Shown here: positions 11,454 through 39,782 of the stretch, piece by piece
Layout of the letters: each line of letters starts with the position of its first letter
How positions within the stretch are numbered: position 1 is the stretch's first letter
IMG/VR virus record: IMGVR_UViG_3300009514_000045
Span: 1-44,205 of that record
Length of the DNA: 44,205 nucleotides
Origin: a virus
Reading direction: 5' to 3' (one strand)
Translations under genes and position numbers: made by a program
Notes under the pieces: model-generated
Seen by the model: the letters and a program-made list of their open reading frames with translations, nothing else
What the model was told of the DNA's origin: nothing
The model's database searches: none

Positions 11454-12035
11454 CTACACCACCGAACAGGAGCTAATGCCGGTTGAAGGCGACGGAGCCG
11501 GAGTACCCGTCACTACGCCTACTCCCTTAGCCCCAAGGAATAGAGATGAAATACCATTACCGAGGGCAATCGAGATGGGAGGCATGAGAGGGCCCCGAAA
11601 TCCGCTCAAAGCGGCGGATTGCATGATTTCTTTGGTCAAAGTGATCGGGTTGGCCGTCACCCTGGTCGTTACGTCGGTTCCGACCCCAACCCCAGCCGAG
11701 ACGCCGGTGTAGACGGCCCCAATGTTGAAGGCGTTGGCCACCCCTACTCCCACAGCCCGAGAGACGTTGGGGGCCAGGAACCCCAGGAACTGGGCCGCAC
11801 TCATCGCAGCAGACACCGAAAGAGGCTGCGGCACCACAAAGAGCTTCCCCACCACCGTCCCGGCCCCTGCCGTTCCAGTCGTGGTGCCTTTGATGCTGAT
11901 GCTGGAGACCCCGTTGAGCCAGTTCACGATGGCATCCGAGAGGACGGAGGAGAACTGCAACCAGACCTGCCCCTGGAGTTCTGGGGCAGCCAGAGCCATG
12001 TTCGCTTGGATGAGCTTGGCGGTAACCGGCATCAC
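11454..12035 (-). CDS. Gly/Ala/Val-rich small baseplate-region protein
   Basis: The frame overlaps the end of the spike gene: GTG at 12035 and ATG at 12032 are both possible starts (193 or 192 residues), and the spike stop TGA lies inside this overlap. After a helical start (MPVTAKLIQANMALAAPELQ) the protein is very rich in Gly, Ala, Val, Ser and Thr, with repeated hydrophobic patches such as GVGVANAFNIGAVYTGVSAG. It ends in a Pro/Ser/Cys-containing tail. It sits between the spike and the giant structural gene and is almost certainly a tail or baseplate component, because coupling by start/stop overlap implies matched production. No family is recognised; a membrane-active or trimeric tip protein would both fit. 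Confidence 0.8.
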   Translation of the reverse strand: MMPVTAKLIQANMALAAPELQGQVWLQFSSVLSDAIVNWLNGVSSISIKGTTTGTAGAGTVVGKLFVVPQPLSVSAAMSAAQFLGFLAPNVSRAVGVGVANAFNIGAVYTGVSAGVGVGTDVTTRVTANPITLTKEIMQSAALSGFRGPLMPPISIALGNGISSLFLGAKGVGVVTGTPAPSPSTGISSCSVV

Positions 12036-14443
12036 GCCACCACGATGGTCGGGACCCCGAGGGTTCCTCCCAGCTTGAAGGTCTTGCCAGTCAGGGCGTT
12101 GAGGGAGCCATCCGTGAGAAGACCACCCCCAGGGGTACCCCCAGGAGGTGTGTGAGTCCCAGGCACCGAGGATGTGAAGGTCATCGAGGAGCCGCTGAAG
12201 ACCACGGACTGACCGCTTAGAGTCACATTGGTAGTGGCCTGGAGGGTCGCCGCACCGCTGGTCGCCTGAATGGACACTGAAGAGGACCTGGCCGACATGC
12301 TGGCGGAGGTGAGTTCCAGGGCCGTGGACCCCGATTCCAGCTTGAGGATACCGGCCCCCACCTTGTAAGTCTGATTCCCCACAGCCACCTGTGTCTCGTG
12401 GTTTCCGGAGGTGATGGTCTCCTTCCGGTCGCCGTACAACATCTCGTACTTGTCGGCCGTCCCGCCCGCAAATCCTGTGGCCGGGGAGCCCGTGAAGGAA
12501 ACTTCTCGGAGGGGACCGTTGGACGGGTTGCTGTCCTTGGGCCCGGAGTAGTTGTAGGTGCTCTTGCCCGTGCTGGACTGGACATAAGTGTTCGAGGAGT
12601 GGGAGATGCCCTGGCTCGATTTGAAGTCCAACCCTGAAGAAGCTCCCAGAGTGATGTTAGCCGCATTGTCCAGCCGAATCTGGTTGCCGTTGATCTGAAC
12701 AGTGTTCACGGCCTTCAGGAGGGCGTTCGTGCCCGCTTCCAGCACCAGGGAGGGGAGTGCCCCCTCACCCTCGCCTGCGGGGGCTGTACGGGCCGCCTGG
12801 CCACCTTCCTGGAACGTACCCCCACCGAAGATCTTGACGGCCCCTCCCTCCGAGGAGAGAAGAATGCCCAGGTTGTCCGCATTACGGCCAGCCCGGGCCC
12901 GGACGATGACAGAACCGCCCATGTCGGCCGAGAGGCTTTCTCCGCCAGGCTCTGTACCGGCCCCCAGCCGGATTCCGGCCCCCAGGCTGGCTTCCATGCT
13001 CCAGGTGTTGCCGGGACCAGCGACAGAGGAAAACAGCCGACCGTCCTTGGTGAAAGAGATGAAGCTTGGGTCTCCCCCGCCCCCCAGAGGAGGTCGCACC
13101 CGCATGAGAGTTGCAGAGTGGGTACTGAGAGGGGAACCTACCCCTGTGGCGAGGACAGGGCTGCGGACATCCCCGTCGAAGATTTGAGGCCGCAATGGCT
13201 GCCCGTAGACAGCCCGGCCCTTCTCTGAGAAGGCGTCGTTGCCCACGACGGAGCCCAAGACAAACTCCAGGAATGGGGAGTTGATGGAGACGCCCTCGGG
13301 GTCGTTGTCCAAGGGACTCCCGGAGGGCAGCCGCTCGGCGTCGAAACCGTCCGTCTGTTCGGTGACGGGAAGTGTTCCATCGCTGATGTGGGCCAACTCG
13401 ATGCGGTACTCAGTCAGGGTGTCCGCGGTCGAATCTGCTGCCGCGTTCTCTCCGGTGGAGGAAACACGGTAGAGGGGCTTCCCTCCGTAGATAGCATCCG
13501 GCGAGTTGTCCCCTCGGAGGGTCCCGTCATCATCCAGGAAGAGCCCCAGTTTCAAGAAGTCGTTGGGGTCGGTGTCCTCGCCCAGAATAAGATCTGCCAG
13601 AGGGGTTCCATCACCATCTTGCTGGAAAACCCCAGCGGGAGTGAGGATGCCCTCGGCATAGGCTGCCTCGTCAAGAAGAGTTTCAGTGAGAGGATTCCCT
13701 TCCTCATCAATCTGGCGGCTGGAGGCCCAGTCCACCCCATCAGAAGCCATCTGAGAGGGGAGGAACGTAGCATCCCGCTGGACCATGCCCGCGTACAGAC
13801 GGAACCCGGAGCCAGCATGGAACTGCTGGAGGGAGCGCAGGATGAGGGCCTGGTCCTGGTCCCGGAGATGGACTTCGTTGCCTCGGCGGTTGGCCAGGAG
13901 GACGGACTCATTCAGAACCAGGTCAGCACCCTGAGAGGAGGAAGCCACCACGTTCCCAGGCTCCATGTGCCGGAGCTTGTGGCGTCTCCGGTCCATCACC
14001 CCCTGCATCTGGTGTTTGAGCAGGGGTGTCGTCCCAGACTCATCGGGGGAGTAGGGCTGTGTGGGAAGCCAGTCATATCCCGCATCCACGCCAGGAATAA
14101 CCCAGGAGACAATCCAGGGCTGCCGGGTTCGTCCGGACTCCTGCATCCCCCAACCCACGACACAGATGTCCCCGGGCTCTGGGAGGGCTCCCAGGAAGTG
14201 TCGGTAGCCCCCGCCCGGAAAGGTCATTGGAACAGGCAGGCGAGGAATGGTCTCTCCGGTTTCTATGAGGAGGCTGACCTCCATCTTTTCGTAGTCCACC
14301 GTCCGAACAGAAGCCAAGGAGAGGGCGTAGAACTGAGCGCCCGTGTTGGCCGAATACTGGTCGAACTTGTTGGGAGCCAGGTCCCCACGCATCTGGGAAG
14401 AGGAGACACCCCGTCCGAGGACTTCATCAGGATTGTTAGCCAT
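12032..14443 (-). CDS. Baseplate spike protein (gp5/gpV-like) with beta-helical C-terminus
   Basis: The 803-residue protein has an N-terminal region (about 35-140) that looks like the OB-fold domain of phage spike proteins: SLASVRTVDYEKMEVSLLIE, then PEPGDICVVGWGMQESGRTRQPWIVSW. The C-terminal third has repetitive strand-turn sequence (VGNQTYKVGAGILKLESG, SVSIQATSGAATLQATTNVT) typical of a trimeric beta-helix needle. It ends with a Pro/Gly linker (HTPPGGTPGGG) and a short tail. In contractile tails the spike sits below the hub and breaches the outer membrane. The gene starts 3 nt after the hub stop and overlaps the next gene. No lysozyme domain was seen. The assignment rests on the domain pattern and position after the hub. 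Confidence 0.82.
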   Translation of the reverse strand: MANNPDEVLGRGVSSSQMRGDLAPNKFDQYSANTGAQFYALSLASVRTVDYEKMEVSLLIETGETIPRLPVPMTFPGGGYRHFLGALPEPGDICVVGWGMQESGRTRQPWIVSWVIPGVDAGYDWLPTQPYSPDESGTTPLLKHQMQGVMDRRRHKLRHMEPGNVVASSSQGADLVLNESVLLANRRGNEVHLRDQDQALILRSLQQFHAGSGFRLYAGMVQRDATFLPSQMASDGVDWASSRQIDEEGNPLTETLLDEAAYAEGILTPAGVFQQDGDGTPLADLILGEDTDPNDFLKLGLFLDDDGTLRGDNSPDAIYGGKPLYRVSSTGENAAADSTADTLTEYRIELAHISDGTLPVTEQTDGFDAERLPSGSPLDNDPEGVSINSPFLEFVLGSVVGNDAFSEKGRAVYGQPLRPQIFDGDVRSPVLATGVGSPLSTHSATLMRVRPPLGGGGDPSFISFTKDGRLFSSVAGPGNTWSMEASLGAGIRLGAGTEPGGESLSADMGGSVIVRARAGRNADNLGILLSSEGGAVKIFGGGTFQEGGQAARTAPAGEGEGALPSLVLEAGTNALLKAVNTVQINGNQIRLDNAANITLGASSGLDFKSSQGISHSSNTYVQSSTGKSTYNYSGPKDSNPSNGPLREVSFTGSPATGFAGGTADKYEMLYGDRKETITSGNHETQVAVGNQTYKVGAGILKLESGSTALELTSASMSARSSSVSIQATSGAATLQATTNVTLSGQSVVFSGSSMTFTSSVPGTHTPPGGTPGGGLLTDGSLNALTGKTFKLGGTLGVPTIVVA

Positions 14444-14446
14444 CTA

Positions 14447-17400
14447 TCAGCCCTCCTCCGGTGTGAAGTCCGCGACCTCGTCGGCGACCTGCTGGCCAGC
14501 CTCTTCGAGGTCAGTAGTGCTTGCGACCACAGTGGTGGGGATTCCACGGGCCAGGTCACCTACCTGATTGCCGTATGCCTTGAATGCGTCGGCCATGCTG
14601 CTCCGGTTGCCATCAAGGATCTGGCCCCGGAGAGAACTCTGGGAGGTCTGCCACAAAGGCGCCTGCAAGAGCATCTGGTCAGCGACCCAAGCGGAGGGCT
14701 CATCCGGCTGATCGACAGAAACAAATTCCTGGGCCCCGAAGGCCGCAAGAAGCACATCAGCCTCAGCCCCCTTGCACTCACAAACCTGCCGTGAAGTCAG
14801 GAGCCCCAAGTCTGCAAGTCCGAAAGCGGCGTTCGTAGGACTCGTCTTCTGCGAGAATTCCTTGCTGTTAGCGATGTAGTTGCGGAAGGAGTTTCCGAAT
14901 AGATCCGGATCCTGCTGAACTTCCAGGATAGCCGTGCCTAGGGATTGTCCGGTTTCCCCCACGACGTTCTGGGAGGCCGCCAAGACAAGCTGGCTCGCCG
15001 CATCAGGGTTCTGGCTCGCCAACGTGCCGAGGGCCAGCGAGACGTTCCCCGTGTTCTCCAACTCAGCCACAAACGCCTCGACAGCGGCCACACTCACATT
15101 CTCGAAGGGGTTTGATTCGACGAGAAGCTGCAAGTTACCGCTGGCTTCGATGGAAAGACCCCGGCCGTACCGGTAGGACCCGATGACTTCGTATCCCCGC
15201 TCATCGGACACGGGGAAGACCGGGGTGTAGACAGGAACTGTTTCATAGCTCGGGGTATAGACCACGAGGCCACCCGTGCTGTCGTCCATCGGAGAAGCGA
15301 CCTGTCCCAGGGAGAGTTCCTGGATGAGGCGCCCCCAGAACTGGTAGAGATCTGTGAAGGCCACATCCTTCGCCTTCAAGAATTCCTCACTGCCTTCCTG
15401 GCCCGCCCCGAGACTTCCCAGACTCCTGTTATTGCCGGGCTTCCCGTACTCTCCGACGAGGATCTCGTACATGGCGGCGTAGGCCCCGGAGGAATACTTT
15501 GCCAGGGTCTGGGAAAGGGTTTTGGCCAAGCTCTGCAACCCCTTGTCCGGATCCCTGTACTGATCTTCCAAGGTGCCGTCGAAATCCAAGGGAACCCTAG
15601 AGCGTCCCTGAGACACCTGGACAGAGGACAGGGCCTCGTCAAAGGTCGGAATGTTCTCCGGAACGAAAGAGGAAGGACGAATAGCCTCGATGTTTTCCGC
15701 GATGGCCGTCCGGTACTCGTTGTAGAGATCCTCGAACCGCTCCCTCACTGTGGACCCGAACCCAGAGTATTCGGCAGTCTGGCGCAGATTCGGGTACATG
15801 ACCGCATTCGCAGTTTTCCGGGAGAAGTTAGGGTTCCTCTTCCCACTGACCCGCGGCACCTTGATTTCCTTTCGGACACGGTGCTGGGCAAACGCGATAG
15901 TACCGATCTGGTGAGTCGGGGTCGGAACCGCCCGGGCATCCCGCTGGCCTGTGTTGGGCCGCATGATGGGCAGGCCCGCTGTGACCTGGATGTTGGCCAT
16001 TTCGTTGCTGCCATCGACGCTCTGGAAGCCGAACGCCGTGGTAGGGGATTCCAAGTAGATAAGGCCCCCGGCCTGGGTAGTCCCCACGGTCTCCTCATCT
16101 GCCACAATATCCTTCATGCCCTGCTGGTCCGGGCTCGGGTGAGAGGACGAGTAATAGCGGTAGTAGCCCGGCATATTCTTGCCGGGGTTGAAAGAGGCCC
16201 GCAGATCGTTCAAAAGGTCAAAGTAGTTCGAGGCATTGTCACGGTTGTCGATGGCGGTGCCAGTTCGCTCCCGAACAGCCTCGATGACCTGGCGGAGTTG
16301 TTCCGATTCCCGGAGGGCTTCTTCGAGCACGATGGGGGCCGCCGCGAGTTGAGACCCGGACTCAACCTCATTGTAGGCCGCCTGGAAATCCTGGGCCTGG
16401 GAAAGAAGATCCCTAGCAGAACCGATCTTGATGACAGTGTCATCCCCTGTCCGCAAGAGGAATGGTCCCGTGAGCCACTTTTCCTTCTCGCTCTTGTTCC
16501 CTGTCTCCGAGTCATCCAGTTCCAGGACGCCATATTCACGAGCCTTGCGGATAAGGGACTGAAGACCTTTCTCTGTGGACAGATCGGTGAGAAGGATTCC
16601 TGCGACGTAGAAGTTCGGATTCAGGAGTTCGGTATCCAAGGCCAGGACCACGTTAGGGAAGCCCTGGAGCCGAGGAATGCCGTCGTTCCCCGTCACTTGG
16701 AGGGGGAGGGCAGGGAACCACGGATCCGAGAGTTTGGTGTCCAGGACAGTCGGCTCACTACCATCCTCGGGACGCTTGCCCGGGGCATGGAACTTGGCCC
16801 TCCGACCCACCAGATTCAAAGAGGTTGTGCACTGGCCCCCGAAAGTGTGGGAGTGGGAGAAAGACTGGAGATAGAAGAAACAGTCCAGGTAGCGGACGTA
16901 AAGCGGGTATCCAGGACGCAGTTCAGCCCGAACCGGAATCTGACAAGACGCCTTCTTGATTCCGATGTTGTAGAGGTCCATCCGGTTTACGCAGGCGTAG
17001 TACATGGCCCGGGCATCCGAGAAGTAGGCCGTCTCAAAGGTCTGCTGCCTCCAGCCGTACTTGGCGACCAGGCGGTGGTCGATGAACTCGGCCCGGTTGC
17101 CCATCTCTCCGCCAAGCCCAAGCCCGATGTTCTTGAATGCCTCTGAGGTCGCCTTCACCGCCGTAGCTTCAGGCTCCGAATCGGAAACTGAGAAGGAGAT
17201 GATGTCGATGTCCTCGATGACATAAACCCGGCTGCTGGACGTATCCAGGTTGTAGAAAGGTGGCTTGAAGACGAAATCTCCATCCACATCCTGGAAGAAC
17301 TCGAATCCAGTGAGGTCAGACAACGTCTGGGCCATATCCATCTTCGTCTGGTACTCGGTCTCCCAGAAGTTCACGTTTCCGGTTTGCCCCACATCCCAGA

Positions 17401-18436
17401 CAAATGCCTGCATCTCATTGATGTTCAGGCCCATCCCACCCCGCTCGGCATTTGCCTCTGCGGCCTGCCCTGCGAAGGTTGAGGCCGGGTCATAGCCCAG
17501 TTCTCTGGCGGCTGCCGCCAGGTTAGAGAGGGGGTCGTGTTCGTCCGTCTTCAGGGTGGGGTCAGCGAAGGTCGTGACGAGCCGGTTGCTCTCTTTGGTG
17601 GACAAGCGACCCAGGAACGCCTGCTGGAAGGCGTTGTAGAGGGTGCCGTTCACACCGTACATCCGAAGATTGTTGAAGTGCTGGGAGAACCGCTTCTCCC
17701 AGTACAGGATGTGGAACTCCCACATGCTCTCGCTGGTGGCCGTTGAATCTACAGCGGCGTTACTCTGGGTGCCCCGCATCGTGGTTCCAACACCACCCTG
17801 AGCCCCCACCACCGATTTGAACAGAGAATACATGATGGCGTAGGGGGTCATCTTCGTGAAGGTGTGCCCCACCATCGTGGTGTTGACCTTGGAGTTCGTG
17901 GACCTCTTGGCAAAGTGGGCCCCCGAGGTCGCCATCCGCTGGTAGTTCCAGAAGTGGAGCATGTCGTTGCAGTTCAAGGACGCTGTGTGTTCCCCGCCGC
18001 TGTACTCGTGGCTCACTTCGGTCACTACACCATGGAAGACGTGGTAGTACGGGTAAGCCGTGGCCTGCTGGATGTTGATGCCTCCGGACTGCTCCTCGGT
18101 GATGTTCCCAAACTGCCCCTGGGCCGGGAAGTAGCCCCGCATGTAGATGTTGATCTCCAGCCCAGTCGTGAGAACGAACTGGCCGTCCCGGTAGAAGGCG
18201 TGGTCGCTAGCCCTGGGGATGTGCATGGTAATAGAGGCCGAAGCCACCGGATCCACACCCGGGTCCACAGTTACAGCGGAGATGAACTTCTGGAGGTCGA
18301 TGCGTCCTCCGCAAGTAGGGCACCCGGGGATCTCCAACTGACCATTGACGTACACGAGGCAATCCGGGGTGTGGCGGACCACACCTCGATTGTTCAACTG
18401 CCAAGTGCCGACAAGGGGCCTGTTCTCGATACCCAC
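14447..18436 (-). CDS. Baseplate hub protein (gp27/gpD-like), long form
   Basis: The 1329-residue protein begins MGIENRPLVG. Its first 190 residues show a hub-like pattern: VYVNGQLEIPGCPTCGGRID, a beta-rich part with SASITMHIPRASD, then YYHVFHGVVTEVSHEYSGG followed by ASLNCNDMLHFW. Cys26, Cys39 and Cys42 with nearby His22 could form a small metal site. Residues around 520-560 (ELRPGYPLYVRYLDCFFYLQ, FSHSHTFGG) resemble the later hub beta domain. The second half is long, helical and polar and has no recognised domain, so the protein is much larger than T4 gp27-type hubs. It lies between two hub-linking paralogues and the spike, as expected for the central trimer that joins tube and spike. Confidence 0.8.
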   Translation of the reverse strand: MGIENRPLVGTWQLNNRGVVRHTPDCLVYVNGQLEIPGCPTCGGRIDLQKFISAVTVDPGVDPVASASITMHIPRASDHAFYRDGQFVLTTGLEINIYMRGYFPAQGQFGNITEEQSGGINIQQATAYPYYHVFHGVVTEVSHEYSGGEHTASLNCNDMLHFWNYQRMATSGAHFAKRSTNSKVNTTMVGHTFTKMTPYAIMYSLFKSVVGAQGGVGTTMRGTQSNAAVDSTATSESMWEFHILYWEKRFSQHFNNLRMYGVNGTLYNAFQQAFLGRLSTKESNRLVTTFADPTLKTDEHDPLSNLAAAARELGYDPASTFAGQAAEANAERGGMGLNINEMQAFVWDVGQTGNVNFWETEYQTKMDMAQTLSDLTGFEFFQDVDGDFVFKPPFYNLDTSSSRVYVIEDIDIISFSVSDSEPEATAVKATSEAFKNIGLGLGGEMGNRAEFIDHRLVAKYGWRQQTFETAYFSDARAMYYACVNRMDLYNIGIKKASCQIPVRAELRPGYPLYVRYLDCFFYLQSFSHSHTFGGQCTTSLNLVGRRAKFHAPGKRPEDGSEPTVLDTKLSDPWFPALPLQVTGNDGIPRLQGFPNVVLALDTELLNPNFYVAGILLTDLSTEKGLQSLIRKAREYGVLELDDSETGNKSEKEKWLTGPFLLRTGDDTVIKIGSARDLLSQAQDFQAAYNEVESGSQLAAAPIVLEEALRESEQLRQVIEAVRERTGTAIDNRDNASNYFDLLNDLRASFNPGKNMPGYYRYYSSSHPSPDQQGMKDIVADEETVGTTQAGGLIYLESPTTAFGFQSVDGSNEMANIQVTAGLPIMRPNTGQRDARAVPTPTHQIGTIAFAQHRVRKEIKVPRVSGKRNPNFSRKTANAVMYPNLRQTAEYSGFGSTVRERFEDLYNEYRTAIAENIEAIRPSSFVPENIPTFDEALSSVQVSQGRSRVPLDFDGTLEDQYRDPDKGLQSLAKTLSQTLAKYSSGAYAAMYEILVGEYGKPGNNRSLGSLGAGQEGSEEFLKAKDVAFTDLYQFWGRLIQELSLGQVASPMDDSTGGLVVYTPSYETVPVYTPVFPVSDERGYEVIGSYRYGRGLSIEASGNLQLLVESNPFENVSVAAVEAFVAELENTGNVSLALGTLASQNPDAASQLVLAASQNVVGETGQSLGTAILEVQQDPDLFGNSFRNYIANSKEFSQKTSPTNAAFGLADLGLLTSRQVCECKGAEADVLLAAFGAQEFVSVDQPDEPSAWVADQMLLQAPLWQTSQSSLRGQILDGNRSSMADAFKAYGNQVGDLARGIPTTVVASTTDLEEAGQQVADEVADFTPEEG

Positions 18437-26294: not shown

Positions 26295-27050
26295 CTAGAT
26301 CAGTCCGCCGCCGCCCGTCGTGGTCGATCCGTAGCGGACCGAGCCAAGCTGGCCGATGGTCGGGTCGTTGCCAGTCGCCAAGAACTCGCCGTACACGCTG
26401 GAGAAGTCGTGAACGTCAGTGACGTTCGCCGTACCGGACTCCATCACGATGGCTCCGTCCTTGGAGAAAGTCGTGTTCCAGTCAGCCCACCAGCACGCCT
26501 CGTAGAGGGTGATGAGAGCCGTGTGACCGCCGCCAGAGATGCCTGCAACCTCGGTCACCGTGGGGAACTCGATGCTCTTCACGCCGCCGTTGAAGCTGCC
26601 ACTGGTGCCGGAGAATCCGTCGCCCAGATCGTTGTCGGCCAGGGTCGAGAACACCACCTGCTGCTCGATGTCGAAGGGCCACTTGTGGTGCCGGAGGCTC
26701 CGCACGGGACCGTCGATGCCCGCGGCGTAGCCGGTGGCCTGCCACAGGTTCGAGAGGTAGAGAAGGGCTCGCTCCATGGAGAGCGACATCATCGCGGTCG
26801 GACCCGGGACCAACTCGGCGATCATGTCGCCGAAGCCGATGCCCCGAAGCTCCTCGATGGTGCGGCTCTCGGAGGGGTTGATGCTGGACAGGACACCCAT
26901 CTGGAACAAGGCCGAACTGGTCCCGTAGGCGGGAGCCAGGACGCGGACCTTCTGGGAAACCGCAGTCCTGGTGTTCGGGCTCGTCCCAAAATCGTAGAGA
27001 GGGCTTGTGCCCTGTACGCCCTGCTGGGGATTGAGATCTTGGTTGGCCAT
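26295..27050 (-). CDS. Probable tail tube protein
   Basis: The start at ATG 27050 (MANQDLNPQQGVQG, 251 residues) has GGAGA 6 nt upstream; an earlier in-frame start would cover the leader and has no ribosome site. The protein is a compact, mixed beta/helix chain (TAVSQKVRVLAPAYGTSSAL; FPTVTEVAGISGGGHTALIT; YEACWWADWNTTFSKDGAIV) ending in Gly-Gly-Gly-Gly-Leu-Ile. It sits immediately before the chaperone-like and tape measure genes and has its own promoter-like element and a 5' leader with a stem-loop, consistent with a highly expressed major virion protein. No motif proves the fold. It could alternatively be another tail protein, but tube is the best fit by size and order. Confidence 0.7.
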   Translation of the reverse strand: MANQDLNPQQGVQGTSPLYDFGTSPNTRTAVSQKVRVLAPAYGTSSALFQMGVLSSINPSESRTIEELRGIGFGDMIAELVPGPTAMMSLSMERALLYLSNLWQATGYAAGIDGPVRSLRHHKWPFDIEQQVVFSTLADNDLGDGFSGTSGSFNGGVKSIEFPTVTEVAGISGGGHTALITLYEACWWADWNTTFSKDGAIVMESGTANVTDVHDFSSVYGEFLATGNDPTIGQLGSVRYGSTTTGGGGLI

Positions 27051-27075
27051 GGTCGTCTCCGAGGGTTCACACAGG

Positions 27076-27090
27076 CCCCCACGGCGGGGG
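27076..27090 (-). promoter_or_regulatory. Stem-loop in tube gene 5' leader
   Basis: CCCCC and GGGGG pair around a 5-nt loop in the predicted untranslated leader of the tube mRNA, about 25 nt before its start codon. Such leader hairpins can protect abundant mRNAs from decay. No other function is evident. Confidence 0.35.
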
Positions 27091-27107
27091 TCTATCAATC
27101 TAGGGGA

Positions 27108-29986: not shown

Positions 29987-30721
29987 CTATTCTCCTCGAA
30001 TGTAACGGGCAAGCCCCTCAAGATCTTCCAAAAGGGCATCCCGTTTGATTCGGTTGTGGCGAAGACAGAGCCGTCCCACGTTAGAGGGGGTGTGTCCTTC
30101 TCCATAGCGTACCTCATCCCACTCCACCGCAACATTCGTACAGCCTCGCACACCACATTGATCAGGATCCGGATAGCACTTCAGATGATTCGCCAATGCG
30201 GTCACCGCAGCAGCTTTTTTCTCGTTGGATGGAAATTGCTGGTGTCCCCTAAGAACATCGCGCCGAACCATAGAGCGAGCCAGGTCCCTCCACGGATTTT
30301 GCTTTCGCCAAGCCCGCTTTCGCTTGTTAATCTGTTTCCGGTGAGTTCGGTCGTACTCCCGGTTGTAGGCTTTCTGGCAGTCACGGCACCAATAAAACAA
30401 CCCATCCGGGCTGTCGGGCTGTCCCTTGTTGAAGGCTGCATGAAGCTTCGTCTCCAAGCATTTGGAGCATTGCTTCATACCTTTAGGGGAGGGAGCCGAG
30501 GGATTTCCCTTCCGGTTCCCTCGCTGAAACCCGGAAGCCCGAAGCGTAATCCCACGTTTCCGCAAGACTTTGGAAATGGTGGCGATGGAAGCCCCTACTT
30601 CCGATGCTACCTCTCGGCAAGTACCCCCCGCCTTGTACAGTCGAGCCATCTCATCATAATCGTCTTCTGTGAATCGCCTATTCATGATGATCATGATAGC
30701 ATAAACGGAAGCTTCGGGCAT
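29987..30721 (-). CDS. HTH and zinc-finger protein with HNH/endonuclease VII-like end
   Basis: The 244-residue frame may start at ATG 30721, or at 30685 (MNRRFTEDDYDEM); neither has a clear ribosome site. Residues 14-58 form a helix-turn-helix (YKAGGTCREVASEVGASIAT). Cys85, Cys88, Cys112 and Cys115 form a zinc finger (QCSKCLE, WCRDCQKAYN), followed by a very basic helix. Residues 189-223 (CGVRGCTN to GRLCLRHN) resemble the end of HNH/endonuclease VII domains, but the usual Asp-His pair reads Trp-Asp-Glu, so activity is doubtful. It is inserted against the direction of its neighbours with almost no spacer (7 nt from the metallophosphatase stop). That is typical of a freestanding homing-type endonuclease. 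Confidence 0.75.
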   Translation of the reverse strand: MPEASVYAIMIIMNRRFTEDDYDEMARLYKAGGTCREVASEVGASIATISKVLRKRGITLRASGFQRGNRKGNPSAPSPKGMKQCSKCLETKLHAAFNKGQPDSPDGLFYWCRDCQKAYNREYDRTHRKQINKRKRAWRKQNPWRDLARSMVRRDVLRGHQQFPSNEKKAAAVTALANHLKCYPDPDQCGVRGCTNVAVEWDEVRYGEGHTPSNVGRLCLRHNRIKRDALLEDLEGLARYIRGE

Positions 30722-31326: not shown

Positions 31327-31647
31327 ATGAGCACTCTGCGACTTGAAATCTTCTCTGACTTCGTGACTCGCCTGGCAACTGCCGAGTGGGGTGAAGTCGA
31401 TTTTGACGGGGAACCGATCCTCTGTGCCGACGTGGGCGAGATCGGATTCACGGTCTACCCGGAACGCTCCCCCGTCGAGTGGGCAACCGTCGTCCACGTT
31501 CTCGATGGGTCGGCGGACAGAAACAAGTTCGTAATCCGTGGAGAGGCCGAGCACGGGGTGGCGGCGGCCAAGGAGAGTGCCCTCGACGCGGGCCCGACGA
31601 TGATGGACAGGGTCATCCAGTTCATGCTCGGGATCGAAGACGACTAG
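31327..31647 (+). CDS. Small acidic protein of unknown function
   Basis: The 106-residue protein begins MSTLRLEIFSDFVTRLATAE and looks like a small alpha/beta fold with several beta strands (GEIGFTVYPERSPVEWATVV) and an acidic C-terminus. The nearest AGGAG is 12 nt before the ATG, so initiation may be weak. Its TAG shares the palindrome CTAG with the stop of the convergent 56-residue gene. No family is recognised. Confidence 0.75.
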   Translation: MSTLRLEIFSDFVTRLATAEWGEVDFDGEPILCADVGEIGFTVYPERSPVEWATVVHVLDGSADRNKFVIRGEAEHGVAAAKESALDAGPTMMDRVIQFMLGIEDD

Positions 31648-31814
31648 CGTTTGTCTGAGTCCGGCCCCCTCTCCGAGGATTTGATGAGGCGAATCTTGGC
31701 CCCCGTTCGCTTGGGGGTTTTCTTCCCGTTGGACTTCCGTTCTCGGAGCAGTCTGTTGGTCTGCTCTCTCTCAGTCAAAAGCACACGGACGCGCTCTGCG
31801 GTATCGCCACTCAT
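31644..31814 (-). CDS. Small basic protein following the histidine kinase
   Basis: The 56-residue frame starts at ATG 31814, 3 nt after the kinase stop, with GAGGAG 6 nt upstream (the kinase C-terminal Glu-Glu codons serve as the ribosome site). It reads MSGDTAERVRVLLTEREQTN and then becomes strongly basic (RKSNGKKTPKRTGAKIRLIK). It is probably translated together with the kinase. It may be a small regulator or nucleic-acid binder. No family is recognised, but the ribosome site and tight spacing make it likely real. Confidence 0.7.
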   Translation of the reverse strand: MSGDTAERVRVLLTEREQTNRLLRERKSNGKKTPKRTGAKIRLIKSSERGPDSDKR

Positions 31815-31817
31815 AGT

Positions 31818-33389
31818 CTACTCCTCGAAGGCGTAGTAGGTCTCGCCGGAGATGATCGCGGGGATTTCCCCCGAACTTACAGCTATGTTCTCACCGGGCT
31901 CCCTGCTTGGAAGGGTGAATTGGAAGGTAGTACCTCGATCCTCGCTGGATGCAAACGAGATAACCCCTCGATGGATTCCAACGATCTTCTTGCACAAGGC
32001 CAGCCCGATACCACTCCCCTCCACGTCTGGACGTAGGCGAGAGAACATCGTGAAGACCTTCTTGCGGTACTCAGGATTGATTCCAGGGCCATTGTCTTCA
32101 ACGAAGATTTCCCAGTCCATGAGACCCCGGTAGGCCGAAACATGGACCTCGGGAACACGGCCCGTGGTGTTGAACTTGATGCCATTACAGATGAGGTTTT
32201 CGAGCAGTTGGCGGAGCAATACAGGATCCCCCACCACCGATACAGGCAATCCTCCGGCCTCGACTTTAGCCCCCCTCTCAGCAATCATCGGACCGAGGTT
32301 CTGAACCGCTTCTGCGAAGACCGTGTTCATGTCAACCCACTGCATCGCAGACCTGTCCGTCTGGACGCGGGAGTAGGTGAGAAGGGCCTCGATGACCTCA
32401 TGGAGAGCTTGTACGCCATCTACAATATGCTGGATATAGGAAGATGTTTCGTTTGAGAGAGTCCCCGGGTACTCAATCGCCAGAAGTTCGGCGAAGGAGG
32501 AGATACGGCGAAGGGGGGCTTTGAGTTCGTGGCTAGCTACATTAGCAAACTGCTCCAAGTCCCGGTTAGACCTCTCCAGGTCGTGAGTTCGGTCCTTCAA
32601 GACCTCCAGGGTAAGCCTCTCCTCGGAGACATCCCGGAAGACAGCCATGGCCAGTTGGCCCCCTCCGTTGACCGGCATGAGATGGATGGTGTGTTGGTGC
32701 CCCAGTAGAACCTCATCCACCACATTGCGTTCCCCGTTCAAGGCTTGCTCATAGTAGGGCTGGAGTTTGCGGACGATGTCTGCGGGGAACGTGGCCCAGA
32801 GAGTGAGGCCGTTCGTGTTCATGACAGGATCCAAGCCCAAGGACGCTACCAGGGGGCCTTCTGCGACGATATGGGTCATGTTCTGGTCAAACAGGAAAAC
32901 CGAGGTCTTCGGGAGGTTCTCGACCAGAAACCGATATAGACTCTCAGCCCGCTTCTGTTTGGTGACATCCCGGGAAGCACTCCGAATCTGGAGAAGGTCC
33001 CCATCCTTGCTGCGGGCCGACTCTGCCACTGTCTCGACCCAGACATAATGGCCATCCTTGTGCTGAAAGCGGCAATCCAACCGGAAAGCCTCTTCCGGTC
33101 CCCCACAATCGGAGACCAGGGCCTGGCACATCTCCTGGTCCTCCGGATGGAGGAAATCCTTGGGATGTCTTCCAAAAAGCTCCCGCGGGGTATACCCCAG
33201 GAGGTGCTTCACAGAGGGGCTGACCCAAATATAGCGACCAAACTCGTCATGGAGGCAAACCAAGTCGCTCGCGTTTTCCGCGAGAAGCCGGAACCGTTTC
33301 TCACTGGTGTGGAGACTCTGGACAAGGAACGCCAGTAGCACCAGGACCGCTACAAGAACGAGCCCTCCCACAATAGCTAGAGTGGTCAT
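31818..33389 (-). CDS. Membrane PAS-PAS sensor histidine kinase
   Basis: The start is ATG at 33389, overlapping the response regulator stop as ATGA, giving 523 residues. Residues 4-26 are one transmembrane helix (LAIVGGLVLVAVLVLLAFLV) with no periplasmic domain. PAS1 spans about 33-145 and PAS2 about 150-258. The dimerisation/phosphoacceptor helix has VASHELKAPLRRISSFAELL with His287. The ATPase domain has an N-box LLENLICNGIKFN (395-407), G1 DNGPGI (432-437), F-box KVFTMFSRLR, and G2 GSGIGLALCKKIVG (458-471). All catalytic motifs are present, so it should autophosphorylate on His287 and pass phosphate to the adjacent regulator. The PAS domains may sense a small ligand or redox state (unknown). 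Histidine kinases are rare in phage structural clusters. Confidence 0.9.
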   Translation of the reverse strand: MTTLAIVGGLVLVAVLVLLAFLVQSLHTSEKRFRLLAENASDLVCLHDEFGRYIWVSPSVKHLLGYTPRELFGRHPKDFLHPEDQEMCQALVSDCGGPEEAFRLDCRFQHKDGHYVWVETVAESARSKDGDLLQIRSASRDVTKQKRAESLYRFLVENLPKTSVFLFDQNMTHIVAEGPLVASLGLDPVMNTNGLTLWATFPADIVRKLQPYYEQALNGERNVVDEVLLGHQHTIHLMPVNGGGQLAMAVFRDVSEERLTLEVLKDRTHDLERSNRDLEQFANVASHELKAPLRRISSFAELLAIEYPGTLSNETSSYIQHIVDGVQALHEVIEALLTYSRVQTDRSAMQWVDMNTVFAEAVQNLGPMIAERGAKVEAGGLPVSVVGDPVLLRQLLENLICNGIKFNTTGRVPEVHVSAYRGLMDWEIFVEDNGPGINPEYRKKVFTMFSRLRPDVEGSGIGLALCKKIVGIHRGVISFASSEDRGTTFQFTLPSREPGENIAVSSGEIPAIISGETYYAFEE

Positions 33390-33826
33390 GGTTTCTGGAG
33401 GATAGCGGTCTGGAACCAGAAGTTGTCCAGGCTCGCCACGGCCCTGGTGAAGTCTTTGTAGGCCACCGGCTTCACGACGTAGGCATTCGCCCCAAGCCGA
33501 TAGCACTCATTCACATCGTTGGCGGCTGAGGAAGTTGTGAGGACCACCACGGGGATGCTCCGAAGGTCCTCCTCCCCCCTCATGTCTTCAAGTACCCCCC
33601 GACCATTCTTGCGGGGCATGTTGAGGTCGAGGAGGACGAGATCGGGCGTGGTGGCCCCAGAGAAACGGCCTTCCTTCCGGAGGTACTGCATCGCTTCCAC
33701 GCCGTCCAAGACAACCTGGAGATCGATGTCCCTCTGGAGTTCTCCGAAGGCTTTCTTGGTGAGAGCTACATCGGCAGGATGGTCTTCAACGAGAAGAACT
33801 CTCTTTGGGATAGGAGGTGTCATCAT
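33386..33826 (-). CDS. Single-domain response regulator, Rcp1-like
   Basis: The 146-residue protein is a lone receiver domain. Acidic pocket residues are Glu14 and Asp15 (VLLVEDHPADVALTKKAF), the phosphoacceptor is Asp67 (LVLLDLNMPRKNGRGVLEDM), the switch Thr is at 97-98 (VVVLTTSSAANDV) and Lys119 is in YVVKPV. The C-terminal NFWFQTAIL helix is typical of Rcp1-type regulators that partner phytochrome-like kinases. There is no DNA-binding output domain, so signalling would go through protein contact. GAGGG lies 5-8 nt before the tandem ATGs. It overlaps the kinase start and follows the membrane coiled-coil gene after a few bases. Confidence 0.93.
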   Translation of the reverse strand: MMTPPIPKRVLLVEDHPADVALTKKAFGELQRDIDLQVVLDGVEAMQYLRKEGRFSGATTPDLVLLDLNMPRKNGRGVLEDMRGEEDLRSIPVVVLTTSSAANDVNECYRLGANAYVVKPVAYKDFTRAVASLDNFWFQTAILQKP

Positions 33827-33832
33827 CTGCCC

Positions 33833-34360
33833 TCACGGAGCCTCCTCAACTTGCTCTTGAAGCTGATCGGGAGAAGGCACGGGAACGATCTTGATACCTT
33901 GGGGGAGGGCCAAGTGCTGGATGAGGAACCAGGCGATGATGCCCGCCACCAGGTATCCAAGGGGTTGTTTGAAGATAGACCACGCTTCGGAAGCCAGCTT
34001 CCTGGCTGTGGCCCGCTTGTCGTCCTCCACCTCTTCCTTCCGATCCAGACGGCGTTCTTCCATCTTCCGCCGCCAATCCCGCTCCTCCGCGTCAGCCTGG
34101 GCCCTTTCAATCTCAGCCCGTTTCCGGTCTTCCATGTCCTCACGGAGCAACTGGTTGGTGACCTGAGTCTCCCGCACCAGGTTGTCGAGATGGGCATTCA
34201 TGGTGCCCATCTCCCTTTCCAAATCAGCCATTTTGCCGCCCAGAGAGTCATCCATCGAGTCGAACCGGGTCTTGAGGGTTCGGACTTCCCCGATCACCTC
34301 TGTCGTGATCCTCGTGGAGCCTTCTAGAGCGTCCAACAGCCGTTCATTGTTATCCGACAT
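33833..34360 (-). CDS. Membrane-anchored coiled-coil protein
   Basis: The 175-residue protein has a long charged coiled coil from about residue 20 to 125 (LKTRFDSMDDSLGGKMADLE; EDRKRAEIERAQADAEERDW), then a transmembrane helix at 133-151 (PLGYLVAGIIAWFLIQHLAL) and a short Pro/Glu-rich tail. It is the first gene of the kinase/regulator cassette and is separated from the regulator by only 6 nt. It could be a signalling partner, a lysis-related protein such as a spanin-type linker, or a membrane scaffold. No signal peptide, lipobox or known family is seen; the coiled coil plus single membrane helix is certain enough to describe. Confidence 0.8.
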   Translation of the reverse strand: MSDNNERLLDALEGSTRITTEVIGEVRTLKTRFDSMDDSLGGKMADLEREMGTMNAHLDNLVRETQVTNQLLREDMEDRKRAEIERAQADAEERDWRRKMEERRLDRKEEVEDDKRATARKLASEAWSIFKQPLGYLVAGIIAWFLIQHLALPQGIKIVPVPSPDQLQEQVEEAP

Positions 34361-34425
34361 GGGTTCGTCCTATTCCGGAAGGTCCACCCCCCGGTAGAGA
34401 TAGGAATTCTAGCGGACCTCAAGGT

Positions 34426-34463
34426 AGAAAGCCCCCGCCGGGTGTCCCTGGCGGGGGCTTTCT
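34426..34463. terminator. Strong GC-rich stem-loop terminator
   Basis: AGAAAGCCCCCGCC pairs perfectly with GGCGGGGGCTTTCT around a 10-nt loop. On both strands the stem ends in a short T-containing tail (CTTTCT). It lies after the sheath gene and before the kinase cassette, and should end or attenuate sheath transcripts. Because it is symmetrical it could work in both directions. Confidence 0.75.
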
Positions 34464-34490
34464 GGGTAGTAAATCCAGATTTCCTGGAGT

Positions 34491-34526: not shown

Positions 34527-37500
34527 CTAGAGGGTGGACCGCAGGTTGAAGGTCACCACGATGTAGAGCAGCGGGAAGACCGGCTGGTAGAAGGCTTCCA
34601 CCTCGGCCACCGTCGGGTCGTCGGAGGCCACGTTGGCCTTGACGCCGGTGAAAGCGGTGAGGATTTCAGCCTTCACCAGGAGTCCCAGCGTAGTCGAAAG
34701 CTGGCCTTCGATCTGGCTGAGGATTCCCGGCAGGAACTTGATGCCGATGAACCGGTCCAGGGTGGCCCGGGCCTGCTGCTGCACCTCGTCGGCGATCTGG
34801 ATGACCGTGGGGAGCTTCGTGAGGATGTTGTCCATCTGCGTGGTCAGACCCTGGCGGATCTTCAACACGGGGGGAGCGTCCTCGATGATGGTCACACCGC
34901 GAACCGCGGTCTGGTTCTGCTCCACGGCATCCAGGGTACGGGCCAGGCCCGTGTAGCCGAACAGCTTGCGGCCGGTCCAGGGAGTCGCCACATCCACGGA
35001 GGGCTGGACGATGGTCCCGGCGAGTCCGGCGGCCAGGTAGGACCCGTCAACCAGGAACTCCTCCTCGGTGCCGACAGCGTCGGTGAGGGAGAGAGTCACG
35101 ATGTCGGGGTACACCAGGCGGAACCGGCTGCGTCCGATGGCCTGGGCAGTGTCCCCAGCGGTCCGAGGCAGCGTACCGGCGGGCATGCCACCGATGGAAG
35201 TACGCTCGGCCCGGTGCCGGATGGTGCTCTGCACGTCACAGTGGCGTGCCATCAGGTTGAAGTAGTCCACCACACTCGCCGTGGGCACATCCAGGGGCAC
35301 CAGGATGTCCGGGAGGAGGCCACCACTCAGCGGGCCCTCCAGGTTGTCCAGAGCTTCGATGAAGGCATCCACGGAGGCCGTGTCGTTGACCCCGTCGTTG
35401 TCCTCATCGATGTCCTTCTGGACCTGCTTGACGCCCACCAGGACCGCTCCGTTGAGGATAGCGAGGTAGGAAGCCAGCGTCACCGGGTGGTCCGGGGAGT
35501 TGGTTCCGTACTCGGCCTCGATGGAGGCGAACTTGGTGAACAGCTTCGTGGAGAAGTCCTGCTTCGTGTAGTTGTAGCTGGCGTAGTAGAGGTCCCCGAC
35601 TGCGGGCTCGTTGCCGCCCCGCTCGTAGGTCTCGACGATGGCCGTGTCTCCGGCTCCAACGCCCAGGGTGTTGGTCACCAGCAATTCCACGCCGGGGAGG
35701 GTGTTCACCGGGAGGTTGCTGTCGGTCGTGACCACACGCCGCACGTTGAGGGTGAAGCTGGAACCGTTCGGGTAGTTGGTACCACCCTCCCGCTCCAGGA
35801 CCGTGAAGGTCAGGCCGGTCACCAGGTCGCGGTAGGTCTGGCCCACGGTGCCATCCTGGCCGGTCCCGCTGTTGAGCAGCGAGTCGTTGGCCGTTCCGGA
35901 ACCGTCCACCGGGTCGGAGGAAGTGACGTAGAAGCCGGAGATCCCAGCCTCACCCGTCGCCCCGTCACCGGAGGCAGCATTCAGGCCCACGCCAGGCAGC
36001 AGAACATCGTCTGCCGTGGCGTCGTCCCAGGCCACCGAGGAGGAGACTCCCAGGGCCACGTTGCCGAGGCTCTGGATGTACAGGTACTCCGCGTTGGCTT
36101 CGTCCCGCACCGTCTTGGCCAGGGCTTCGCCCGCGAAGTAGGTGAGGGCCGGACCGGTGATCCAGGAGGTCATCAGGCTGGCCGGAACCGTGGCATCCGA
36201 GTGGCCCATGAGGGCGGATACGAGAACCTCGGTCTCCACCGGAGTACGGGCGGCCTGAGCACCGTCGGAGAATCCGAGAGTGTCATTGGCGTTGCCCTCA
36301 CCGATGAAGATGGCAGAGGTCTCGTCATCCTGGCCGGAGCGGAACCGGATGGCGGCACCCTCCTGCCGGACCAGACCGGCTGCCACTGCGGCGGCTGCCG
36401 AAGCGGCGAGTCCCTGGTTGGCCATCTCAACGGCGATCTGGTTGAGGATGGTGTTGGCCGTGGTGGCCGGTCCCAGGGGCACATCCGCGGAGGAGCCATC
36501 TGCCAAGGCAGCACCCGCAGCGTCCGTGAACTCCACCGTGACGGGGGTGCCGTCGAAGGTGAACTTGAAGACGTTGTTCTGCGGGGTGGTTCCGCCGTCA
36601 GCGTAGAAGGTCACGACGGGCTGGCCGTCGCGGGCATCCGCGTAGGTAGCTGCGGGCACCTGACCATCGGCGAACCCGACGATTCCCCGGAGGGTTGCGG
36701 GCTGGACGGTAGCCTTCCATCCGGCCAGACCCTGCTCGTTGACGGTGAGGCCGGTCAGGTCTGCACCCGAGGAGCCTTCCACCTTGAGTTGGGCCTGGTC
36801 GAGGGAGGACTGCATGTCCAGGGAGCCGGAACCCGGCACCAGGCGGTTGCGGAGGATGATGCGGTCCCAGAGCAGGGCACTCGTGTTGTCACCGGCGATG
36901 GTGAAGCGACGGGCCACAGCACCGTCCACGATCTTGACCTGGTCGGAGGCCGGAGCCGGGTCGGAGTCCCAACCCGCCAGGATGGCGAAGTCCTGAGCCG
37001 GGGTTCCATCGGTGATGACCTCCAGGAAGCCAGCCGCGTCACCGTAGGCTTTGGTCAGGATGAGCCGAAGCTGAGCATCCGCGTCTGCCTCAACCTCGAC
37101 GGCCAGACCATCGAAGGGTGCCGCGAGGGCCCCGATGATGGGCAGCAGAGCCGCCTCAACCGCCGCAGCCAGAAGGCTGGCGGAGTTGTAGGTTCCCGGG
37201 GGGATGGTGGCGGTGAGGATTCCGGAACCGCCGGAGACATCGCCCGTGTAGTTCAGGCTGATGGTGTCGTACTCACCGGCCGAGATGTCCACGGCGGAGG
37301 TGAAACGAGTGGCACCAGCGTACTGGGGACGGGCATCGGGGTCCTGGACCAGGTAGGTGGTCGTGGCGTCCGGGGCGGTTGCCCAACCGGAAACGGTGGC
37401 CACCTTGGTGGTTCCATCGTAGGCGCTGATGGTGTCAGTCAGACCCAAGGTTCCGACGGGGGAGTTGTTGGTCAGCGTGACCGTCCATCCGACGTAGTAA

Positions 37501-39782
37501 TCATCGATGTCGGAAGCACCGGCAGCCAAGGTGATGGCGGCTGCCGCACCGCCCGCAGCCGTTCCAGTCTCACCGGTGGCAGCGTTGTTGATGGCGGAGA
37601 CGAAGTCCGACAGGTCCTGGGTGGACCCGGAGACTGCGGAGGACTGCACCAGCACACCATCCAGGCTCAGGTTCACCTCGCGGTTCGTGGTGTCGATGGC
37701 GTAGGTGGTCTGGCCCGAAGCGGCATCGTATCCCACCTCGTCACCGACCAACTGGGCGTGGAAGCCCGCGTCTCCGGCACCGAGGATGTCAGAGAGGTCG
37801 ATGCCCGCGGCACCGGTCACGAGATCGGAGCCGTCGATCTTGACCCGCAGGTGGTCGGAAGCACCGCTGATGGGGAAGTAGGGATCCGAGCCCGGGACAC
37901 TGTACTTCGCCAGGGTGCTGTCCTTGGCGGAGAAGGTCACGGTCACGTCCTCTTCGACGGAGCCCGCGAAGGAACTGGTGTCGAAGGGAGACTCGAAGCG
38001 GCAGTCAGCCGTCCGCTCAGAGCCGCTGGGGAACTGGATGGTGATGCCAGCCAGGCCAGCCGACTTGGAGCCAAACTGCGGGGTCAGGAGGTCGGCCCCA
38101 TCCTCGTTGGCGATGGTGTAGGTGCCCACACCAGCAGCACCAGGGGTCTCGACGGCCACCGTGTACGCCTGGTCGGTCAGGGTGTTGTAGTAGAAGGTGC
38201 AGAAGACCTGGGCTCCGACCGGGACCTCGTCTTCGAGGGTGATGGTCGAAGTGCTGGATTCCACCTTCGTCACCGTCACGGAACCGCGGTTGAGGGCATC
38301 CTGGATGCCGAAGCCCCAGTAGGCCACCACCAGGTCCGGGCGGTTGGTGGGCAGGTCGATGCGGCCGTTGGAGACCGTCTGGAAGAGGCTCTGGCCCAGG
38401 GGGCTGTTCCGGCCGTTTCCAGTGGTCGGGACCAGCGGAAGCTGGAACTCGACCTTGGAGGTCACCGGAGGAGACACGCTGGTGTCGGTCACAGCATCAC
38501 ACTCGGCGAGGTACTGCTTGGCGTCCACCAGGGAGGTGCTGATCTGGGTGTCATCCAGGAACTCGGTGCCCTGAGTGTGCTCACCAGAGCGAACCGTCAC
38601 AGCGGTTCCCCAGAGGATCTTGTCGTCCTGGAGGATGAAATCGGCTCCCTCGACGTAGTCGGAGCGGTCCGGGGTGGCACCGCAGCGGAACACATCGGTC
38701 ACACCGATGTGGGCCAGGTAGTCGAAGGTGTCCTGCCAGGTGTTGAAGTAGTATTGCACGGTGACGACTGCACCGACCTCGGGGGCCCAGGGCAAAGTCA
38801 CGGCACGGGTCTGGCCATCCACGGCGGTCGGGATGACCTGCACGCCGTCCACTTTGACCACCACGTCCGAGGGGTCGGTCGTGGTCACACCACCGTTGGA
38901 GCCGTCCACGATGGGGCCCTCGAAGGTGTAGAACACCCGGTTGCGGGCAGTGGACTCACCGTTGGTGAAGCCGAGGGTGCTGTTGGCGGTCCCGTTGCCC
39001 ACCGTGATGTCGCGGTCGGCGGTGAGAGACACAGCAGTCTCACCGTGGTTGTTCGTGAAGATCCCGGCGGAAGCACTCGTGCCGGAGAAGCCGCTGTTCA
39101 GGAAGCTGGCCATCTGGGAAGCAGACCAAGGAGTCCCGGGGTTGGAAGCCGGGATGGTGATGGTCACTTCGGCATCATCGGAGTCGATAGTGAAGATCAG
39201 GGTGTCGTTCACCCCGGTCTCGATGGTGTAGCTCTCACCCACCTGTCCGTAGAGAAGGGGGGCGTCCGGCGTCACCTGGTCACTCACGTCGTCCGTGGTA
39301 CGGGTGTCCGTCCGGTTGAAGAAGTAGGTGACCCGCACTTCGTCGCCCAGGTTGGGAGGCGTGGCGAGTTTGAGGACACCACTCTCACCGTTGATCTGGA
39401 GAACCACAATGGGGTTGCCATTGATGGTCACAGACACAGCGGAGGTGTTGGTGGCGGTCGTCCCCGTGCCGTCACCGGTCACGATGGGGTAGTTGCGGAC
39501 CTGGATACGGTCCAGCGAGCCGTCGAAGGCGCCCAGGGTGACCTGGCCGGATTCGGAAATGCTCACCACTGCACGACCCGTCTCATCCTCCTGGACGATG
39601 CGCTGGTCAACGCTGCTGCTGGAGCCGCGGACCAGTTCCAGGTCGTTCTGGGTCAGAAGTTCGGAGCCCGTACCGATGTAGATCGGCAGACGAAGGCCCT
39701 GGAGGAGGGCCTGAGTGGGGTTCTCGAAGAGAGTCCGGGTGTAGACGCCGGGGGGTGCGTAGATGCTACCGGGGAAAGCCAT
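34527..39782 (-). CDS. Tail sheath protein, giant form (1751 aa)
   Basis: The N-terminus (MAFPGSIYAPPGVYTRTLFE, then LRLPIYIGTGSELL) and the C-terminus (NQTAVRGVTIIEDAPPVLKI, ATLDRFIGIKFLPGILSQIE, and PVFPLLYIVVTFNLRSTL) match contractile tail sheath proteins, whose ends donate strands to neighbours. The usual length is about 400-700 residues, so roughly 1000 extra residues are inserted in the middle (about 100-1250). These are Gly/Thr/Asp-rich, beta-type sequence with repeated modules ending YFFN, YYFN and YYNT near residues 150, 345 and 530, and a TLGF-containing module near 270 and 1170. The extra domains probably decorate the tail surface (inference). The gene has its own promoter-like element and tandem stem-loops at the end. 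Confidence 0.9.
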   Translation of the reverse strand: MAFPGSIYAPPGVYTRTLFENPTQALLQGLRLPIYIGTGSELLTQNDLELVRGSSSSVDQRIVQEDETGRAVVSISESGQVTLGAFDGSLDRIQVRNYPIVTGDGTGTTATNTSAVSVTINGNPIVVLQINGESGVLKLATPPNLGDEVRVTYFFNRTDTRTTDDVSDQVTPDAPLLYGQVGESYTIETGVNDTLIFTIDSDDAEVTITIPASNPGTPWSASQMASFLNSGFSGTSASAGIFTNNHGETAVSLTADRDITVGNGTANSTLGFTNGESTARNRVFYTFEGPIVDGSNGGVTTTDPSDVVVKVDGVQVIPTAVDGQTRAVTLPWAPEVGAVVTVQYYFNTWQDTFDYLAHIGVTDVFRCGATPDRSDYVEGADFILQDDKILWGTAVTVRSGEHTQGTEFLDDTQISTSLVDAKQYLAECDAVTDTSVSPPVTSKVEFQLPLVPTTGNGRNSPLGQSLFQTVSNGRIDLPTNRPDLVVAYWGFGIQDALNRGSVTVTKVESSTSTITLEDEVPVGAQVFCTFYYNTLTDQAYTVAVETPGAAGVGTYTIANEDGADLLTPQFGSKSAGLAGITIQFPSGSERTADCRFESPFDTSSFAGSVEEDVTVTFSAKDSTLAKYSVPGSDPYFPISGASDHLRVKIDGSDLVTGAAGIDLSDILGAGDAGFHAQLVGDEVGYDAASGQTTYAIDTTNREVNLSLDGVLVQSSAVSGSTQDLSDFVSAINNAATGETGTAAGGAAAAITLAAGASDIDDYYVGWTVTLTNNSPVGTLGLTDTISAYDGTTKVATVSGWATAPDATTTYLVQDPDARPQYAGATRFTSAVDISAGEYDTISLNYTGDVSGGSGILTATIPPGTYNSASLLAAAVEAALLPIIGALAAPFDGLAVEVEADADAQLRLILTKAYGDAAGFLEVITDGTPAQDFAILAGWDSDPAPASDQVKIVDGAVARRFTIAGDNTSALLWDRIILRNRLVPGSGSLDMQSSLDQAQLKVEGSSGADLTGLTVNEQGLAGWKATVQPATLRGIVGFADGQVPAATYADARDGQPVVTFYADGGTTPQNNVFKFTFDGTPVTVEFTDAAGAALADGSSADVPLGPATTANTILNQIAVEMANQGLAASAAAAVAAGLVRQEGAAIRFRSGQDDETSAIFIGEGNANDTLGFSDGAQAARTPVETEVLVSALMGHSDATVPASLMTSWITGPALTYFAGEALAKTVRDEANAEYLYIQSLGNVALGVSSSVAWDDATADDVLLPGVGLNAASGDGATGEAGISGFYVTSSDPVDGSGTANDSLLNSGTGQDGTVGQTYRDLVTGLTFTVLEREGGTNYPNGSSFTLNVRRVVTTDSNLPVNTLPGVELLVTNTLGVGAGDTAIVETYERGGNEPAVGDLYYASYNYTKQDFSTKLFTKFASIEAEYGTNSPDHPVTLASYLAILNGAVLVGVKQVQKDIDEDNDGVNDTASVDAFIEALDNLEGPLSGGLLPDILVPLDVPTASVVDYFNLMARHCDVQSTIRHRAERTSIGGMPAGTLPRTAGDTAQAIGRSRFRLVYPDIVTLSLTDAVGTEEEFLVDGSYLAAGLAGTIVQPSVDVATPWTGRKLFGYTGLARTLDAVEQNQTAVRGVTIIEDAPPVLKIRQGLTTQMDNILTKLPTVIQIADEVQQQARATLDRFIGIKFLPGILSQIEGQLSTTLGLLVKAEILTAFTGVKANVASDDPTVAEVEAFYQPVFPLLYIVVTFNLRSTL

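Follow-up and report, generated by a model that had tools for sequence, protein, structure and literature searches.

The window analysed here, the whole 44,205 bases of the linear IMG/VR virus record IMGVR_UViG_3300009514_000045 (probably a fragment), carries at 31644-34360 on its minus strand a cassette of four tightly packed genes, in which a membrane histidine kinase (HK) and a single-domain response regulator (RR) are encoded side by side. On balance, this cassette is probably a maintained cargo operon, or "moron", of a jumbo-type phage, providing a working kinase-regulator pair with an output by protein contact. As judged from its conservation in a second, independent IMG/VR virus record of 61 kb (IMGVR_UViG_3300025288_000022, hereafter L002), the cassette is real and evolutionarily maintained; since the same cassette recurs there, it is not a chance arrangement.

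The four-gene cassette and its kinase-regulator pair

All four open reading frames (ORFs) were confirmed downstream of the tail sheath gene and a strong hairpin, co-oriented with the tail genes. The first gene (33833-34360) encodes an acidic coiled-coil protein of 175 amino acids (aa), and is followed by the RR (33386-33826, 146 aa), the HK (31818-33389, 523 aa) and a small basic protein (31644-31814, 56 aa, net charge +9). The HK start codon at 33389 overlaps the RR stop codon as ATGA (33386-33389), and the Shine-Dalgarno sequence of the small basic protein, GAGGAG, falls within the 3' end of the HK gene. A first-pass annotation of this stretch had described a complete cassette on the tail-gene strand with an intact kinase and regulator, the ATGA overlap, an Rcp1-like regulator devoid of a DNA-binding domain, and flanking genes for a membrane-anchored coiled-coil protein and a small basic protein with a strong ribosome site; our analysis bears out each of these features.

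Pfam domains were found above the curated cut-offs in both signalling proteins, namely HATPase_c (9.5e-24), HisKA (2e-10) and PAS_3 (7.9e-17) in the HK and Response_reg (7e-20) in the RR. As expected of an orthodox two-component pair, the kinase has the phospho-acceptor histidine of HisKA (His287) and the N, G1 and G2 boxes of HATPase_c, with Asn398/402, DNGPGI and GSGIGLAL intact, while the receiver has the acidic pair (Glu14/Asp15), Asp67, the Thr/Ser position (Thr97/98) and Lys119. In an AlphaFold2 model of the HK (mean pLDDT 80), an N-terminal transmembrane helix runs into a first PAS domain (residues 42-141), followed by a second (162-253), a two-helix DHp domain and a CA domain, and Foldseek matched this model to PAS/LOV histidine kinases. 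The kinase departs from the textbook HisKA family in one respect: the phosphatase motif E/D-x-x-T/N after the histidine is replaced by H-E-L-K-A in the window and H-E-L-K-S in L002, placing Ala or Ser where Thr or Asn usually supports phosphatase activity, an activity which this substitution does not exclude. The RR is a receiver alone, lacking any output domain, and retains a C-terminal Rcp1-like extension, its 146 aa aligning to Rcp1/RcpA up to profile position 145.

The coiled-coil protein has one transmembrane helix near its C-terminus (residues ~134-152 by hydropathy), no weighty match in Pfam, PHROG, PADLOC, PDB or the phage collection, and a single relative in IMG/VR, that of L002. It has in common with the small basic protein the motif TN-x-LLRE (TNQLLRE and TNRLLRE, respectively), and the small protein of L002 carries TNQLLR, a shared element that could possibly reflect interaction or duplication.

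Conservation in a second phage and location in a cargo hotspot

In L002, the same four genes follow a homologous sheath gene in the same order, including the ATGA overlap. Identity between the two phages amounts to 66% for the sheath, 59% for the RR, 48% for the HK and 40% for the coiled-coil protein (9464-9994 in L002, syntenic); the small-protein counterpart of L002 (11999-12142, 47 aa) shares TN-x-LLR. Catalytic residues are all kept, and the best-kept part of the HK is the DHp domain (61%), compared with about 40% for the PAS domains. The proportions of differences at codon positions 1, 2 and 3 are 0.42/0.32/0.68 for the HK, 0.26/0.29/0.63 for the RR and 0.27/0.21/0.58 for the sheath, and because third positions are the most diverged in all three, long-term purifying selection is evident. 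Furthermore, G+C content tracks each phage (HK 0.52 in L002 vs 0.56 in the window). Limited pattern scans of IMG/VR for the HK returned no relative with the single protein and the L002 record only with the alignment.

The sheath itself (34527-39782, minus strand, 1751 aa, PHROG tail sheath 1e-25) belongs, by its sequence relatives, to a family of jumbo-type phages, with at least 80 records in IMG/VR of up to 437 kb and an uncultured phage of 485 kb whose sheath shares 48% identity. The interval between the sheath and a tube-like gene (26295-27098, minus strand) spans 0.7 to 7.4 kb among relatives, in which it holds HNH/homing-endonuclease-like proteins with ROS/MUCR-type fingers, a C5-methyltransferase, a VWA/VIT protein, or little at all. 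Out of about 40 sheath-family records with sequence at this site, only the window and L002 harbour the cassette, and given this variability, the cassette is cargo of a hotspot and not tail machinery. The first-pass description of a cassette inside a phage tail gene cluster thus needs some qualification, as these genes are no built-in component of that cluster. Its placement "between sheath and tube" is supported by synteny with 11 relatives, in which a homologue of the tube-like gene follows the interval; the name "tube" is an inference, the gene having only one weak structural PHROG match.

In both phages, the cassette is set apart from the sheath by a strong hairpin that resembles an intrinsic terminator lacking a long T run (34420-34470, minus strand, -34.2 kcal/mol, z -7.1, in the window; 9318-9375, -30.8, z -6.6, in L002). 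A YCTATA motif on the minus strand (39826, 40463 and 27115) lies about 17-45 bases before the sheath, FmdB-like and tube-like genes, and is present in 14 of 58 distinct sheath upstream regions of relatives, compared with 3.0 expected from shuffling, making it a candidate late promoter.

The hotspot also holds other genes. A PPP-type metallophosphatase resembling NinI of phage lambda (29059-29979, plus strand) is convergent to the cassette and could in principle affect phospho-signalling, and a helix-turn-helix plus endonuclease VII/HNH-like gene (29987-30721, minus strand), whose codon usage deviates most from that of the phage, is probably a free-standing homing-type endonuclease. Elsewhere in the tail region, the minus strand carries very large ORFs of 3555 aa (784-11451), 1329 aa (14447-18436) and 803 aa (12032-14443), the latter two having no PHROG match, and in record L017 a 1752-aa ORF with no Pfam match (11582-16840) lies directly 3' of the sheath. 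No tRNA was detected in the window.

Kinase-regulator sets in other viruses

Kinase-receiver sets were also found in about nine other virus records (L190, L191, L003/L192, L194, L008, L005, L006, L004 and Microcoleus phage My-WqHQDG). In L003/L192, L194, L190, L191 and the Microcoleus phage, the two genes are adjacent and the receivers mostly of the Rcp1 type. These sets differ from that of the window in their sensors (CHASE3 or none), outputs (RR-GGDEF, RR-PAS) and tree positions. For instance, L003/L192 (527 kb) combines a CHASE3 kinase with an RR-PAS protein (the latter in L192), and L194 (153 kb) encodes in a row, at 7831-9900, a kinase, an Rcp1-type receiver and a receiver-GGDEF diguanylate cyclase, an output of the cyclic-di-GMP type. 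Two of these records, L190 (435 kb) and L191 (288 kb), are jumbo relatives with the same sheath family as the window; their sets are located not at the sheath-tube site but at a distance from the tail genes, as two-component clusters with several receivers (6777-9074 and 7106-10341, respectively).

Searches of both proteins against phage and bacterial proteins, with trees, had been suggested in the first-pass annotation, and the resulting HK and RR trees, in which the cellular rows were chosen by score, agree in their groupings. The window and L002 form one clade (SH-aLRT 100 for the HK, 95/99 for the RR) on a long stem (0.94). L003, L005, L006, L007 and L008 form a clade made up of phages alone in the HK tree, whereas in the RR tree they are joined by a single cellular row (L204). 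L190 groups with the cellular L199 in both trees. Such matching groups argue for inheritance as pairs. Within the RR tree, the window and L002 fall among cellular Rcp1-like receivers, at a fork that stays open in this score-chosen sample. The groups further suggest at least three separate captures of HK-RR pairs by large phages; well-supported branches alone force at least two label changes in the RR tree and at least three in the HK tree. The earlier statement that intact pairs are very uncommon in phages applies to the annotated phage collection, in which receivers are few and many HK matches are short unannotated fragments (many Listeria and Acinetobacter entries among them) that may be host DNA, and not to large virus records, in which pairs recur in at least three lineages, including L190 and L191.

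Signalling output, alternative explanations and known systems

In the mechanism we favour, the HK would be anchored in the host inner membrane through its single N-terminal helix and, as this helix leaves almost no periplasmic part, the two cytoplasmic PAS domains would sense an intracellular or membrane-proximal cue. His287 would then be autophosphorylated and the phosphoryl group passed on to Asp67 of the RR, a transfer to which the intact motifs and the co-inheritance of both genes point. Because the RR is devoid of an output domain, its phosphorylated form would act through contact with another protein, which may be the membrane coiled-coil protein encoded alongside it or a target in a phosphorelay or of the motility type in the host, and no observation decides between the coiled-coil protein and the phosphorelay. 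In line with part of what is expected of a moron, namely additional genes with transcription signals of their own, the cassette is missing from the remaining sheath relatives with sequence at this site (roughly 40) and is preceded by a hairpin in both phages. Several points weigh against our reading as a whole: the exact cassette is confined to two members; a sigma-70 promoter scan yielded no site in the window and nothing above chance in L002; of the candidate late motif, the cassette has just the variant CCTATC, which is set aside as evidence; other partners may be encoded outside the window, as this is probably a fragment; and an RR can be active unphosphorylated even when its sequence is intact. 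It is doubtful that the membrane kinase, the Rcp1-type RR and a membrane coiled-coil effector form a self-contained phage circuit, one of several independent captures, which senses the infected cell and sets a late decision, for example to delay lysis or to respond to superinfection. Nothing points specifically to lysis timing, one of the outputs considered in the first-pass annotation.

Stand-alone receivers of this type are known in bacteria as shuttles or sinks, such as in RcaE-RcaF-RcaC, and it is possible, if clearly less likely than the moron reading, that the HK and its free receiver mainly cross-talk with histidine phosphotransfer (HPt) proteins or hybrid kinases of the host, adding or draining phosphoryl groups, with the coiled-coil protein as a scaffold or passenger. 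In several phyla, relatives are frequently found in cells, so that a host could hold compatible partners, and a search for HPt proteins was negative in six virus records, a result compatible with the rewiring of a host phosphorelay. However, a dedicated HK travels with the RR and both are conserved in order with the coiled-coil gene, which suits a self-contained circuit. It appears rather unlikely that the phosphorylated RR instead binds the tail-anchored coiled-coil protein late in infection and alters its oligomerisation, with effects on the envelope, on when lysis occurs or on superinfection exclusion. This operon partner is kept in both phages, its topology is appropriate, the cassette sits among late structural genes, and TN-x-LLR, present in both the coiled-coil and the small protein, suggests that these two touch each other; yet conservation is lowest for the coiled-coil protein among those aligned, Pfam and PHROG link it to no family of holins, spanins or immunity proteins, and the motif, a match of six residues, may be due to chance.

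The location in a cargo hotspot, adjoining an endonuclease VII/HNH-like gene, and the lack of the cassette in most sheath relatives would also suit a bacterial HK-RR operon acquired with homing-type elements and kept by chance with little effect. We nevertheless judge this improbable, as none of the four genes shows a stop or motif loss despite highly diverged third positions, the stem of the two-phage clade is long, and G+C content follows each phage. A recent host insertion was rejected, with no close cellular HK (best pieces about 40%, except one 44% match over 65 residues) and the nearest cellular RR scoring 183 bits vs 297 for the pair from the window and L002. Several public "phage" HK matches look like possible host contamination, but an assembly chimera, or host DNA wrongly binned as viral, is scarcely credible here, as the same sheath-cassette junction occurs in two independent records and codon usage and G+C content are phage-like. 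Thus, neither a chimera nor a decayed host insertion, both raised in the first-pass annotation as objections, is compatible with the L002 synteny and the intact motifs. PADLOC returned nothing convincing, and a role as a defence system was likewise rejected.

Single proteins with which phages bend the two-component systems of their hosts are known. If the moron reading is true, a complete and maintained kinase-regulator pair would mean that a phage runs its own sensory input, and that it may perceive its surroundings and send signals in the course of infection. Moreover, with the pattern of at least three lineages, jumbo-type phages and receivers mostly free of DNA-binding domains, it becomes possible to test which cues large phages detect and to which host proteins their signals go.

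To date, phage-borne single regulator genes of host type (phoR, nifL, narL) have been reported (PMC10987575), among which the relevant sections of that report present no complete Rcp1-type pair or conserved cassette. A jumbo-phage survey (PMC7824862) describes, in its account of such domains, a different receiver-like domain never linked to kinases, and a huge-phage paper (PMC7162821) makes no mention of kinases or regulators under the terms searched. Our search of the open literature found no report of a complete phage kinase-regulator pair or of such a cassette. The viral histidine kinase fold also occurs in giant and algal viruses and in Caudovirales (EsV-1, Hokovirus, uncultured Caudovirales, Agrobacterium phage Atu_ph07), whose kinases are of low identity (about 10-22%) and mostly larger proteins or from other hosts. 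Sequence matches place the RR and HK in the Rcp1/Cph1-type branch of two-component systems, which is common in bacteria: PDB profiles matched the RR to RcpA (8.6e-39) and Rcp1 (4.3e-37) in alignments that extend along the entire protein and take in the C-terminal FW...LP segment, and the nearest PDB sequence to the HK core is the kinase domain 8f71 of the bacteriophytochrome RpBphP2. Rcp1-type receivers occur commonly in all three phyla covered, for which the sampling was centred on a cyanobacterium (G036), a Pseudomonadota genome (G033) and a metagenome-assembled genome titled Deltaproteobacteria (L108). They nearly always adjoin a Cph1-type HK gene, mostly located upstream. Like Cph1-Rcp1/RcpA, the cassette pairs a single-domain RR with an adjacent HK; in contrast, the RR precedes the HK in both phages, whereas the HK comes first in most cellular relatives, and the pair is phage-encoded and accompanied by a coiled-coil membrane protein. 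Furthermore, its sensor is a transmembrane-PAS-PAS arrangement in which only PAS domains were found and not the PAS-GAF-PHY module of phytochromes, so that the HK may work like Cph1 but is not Cph1.
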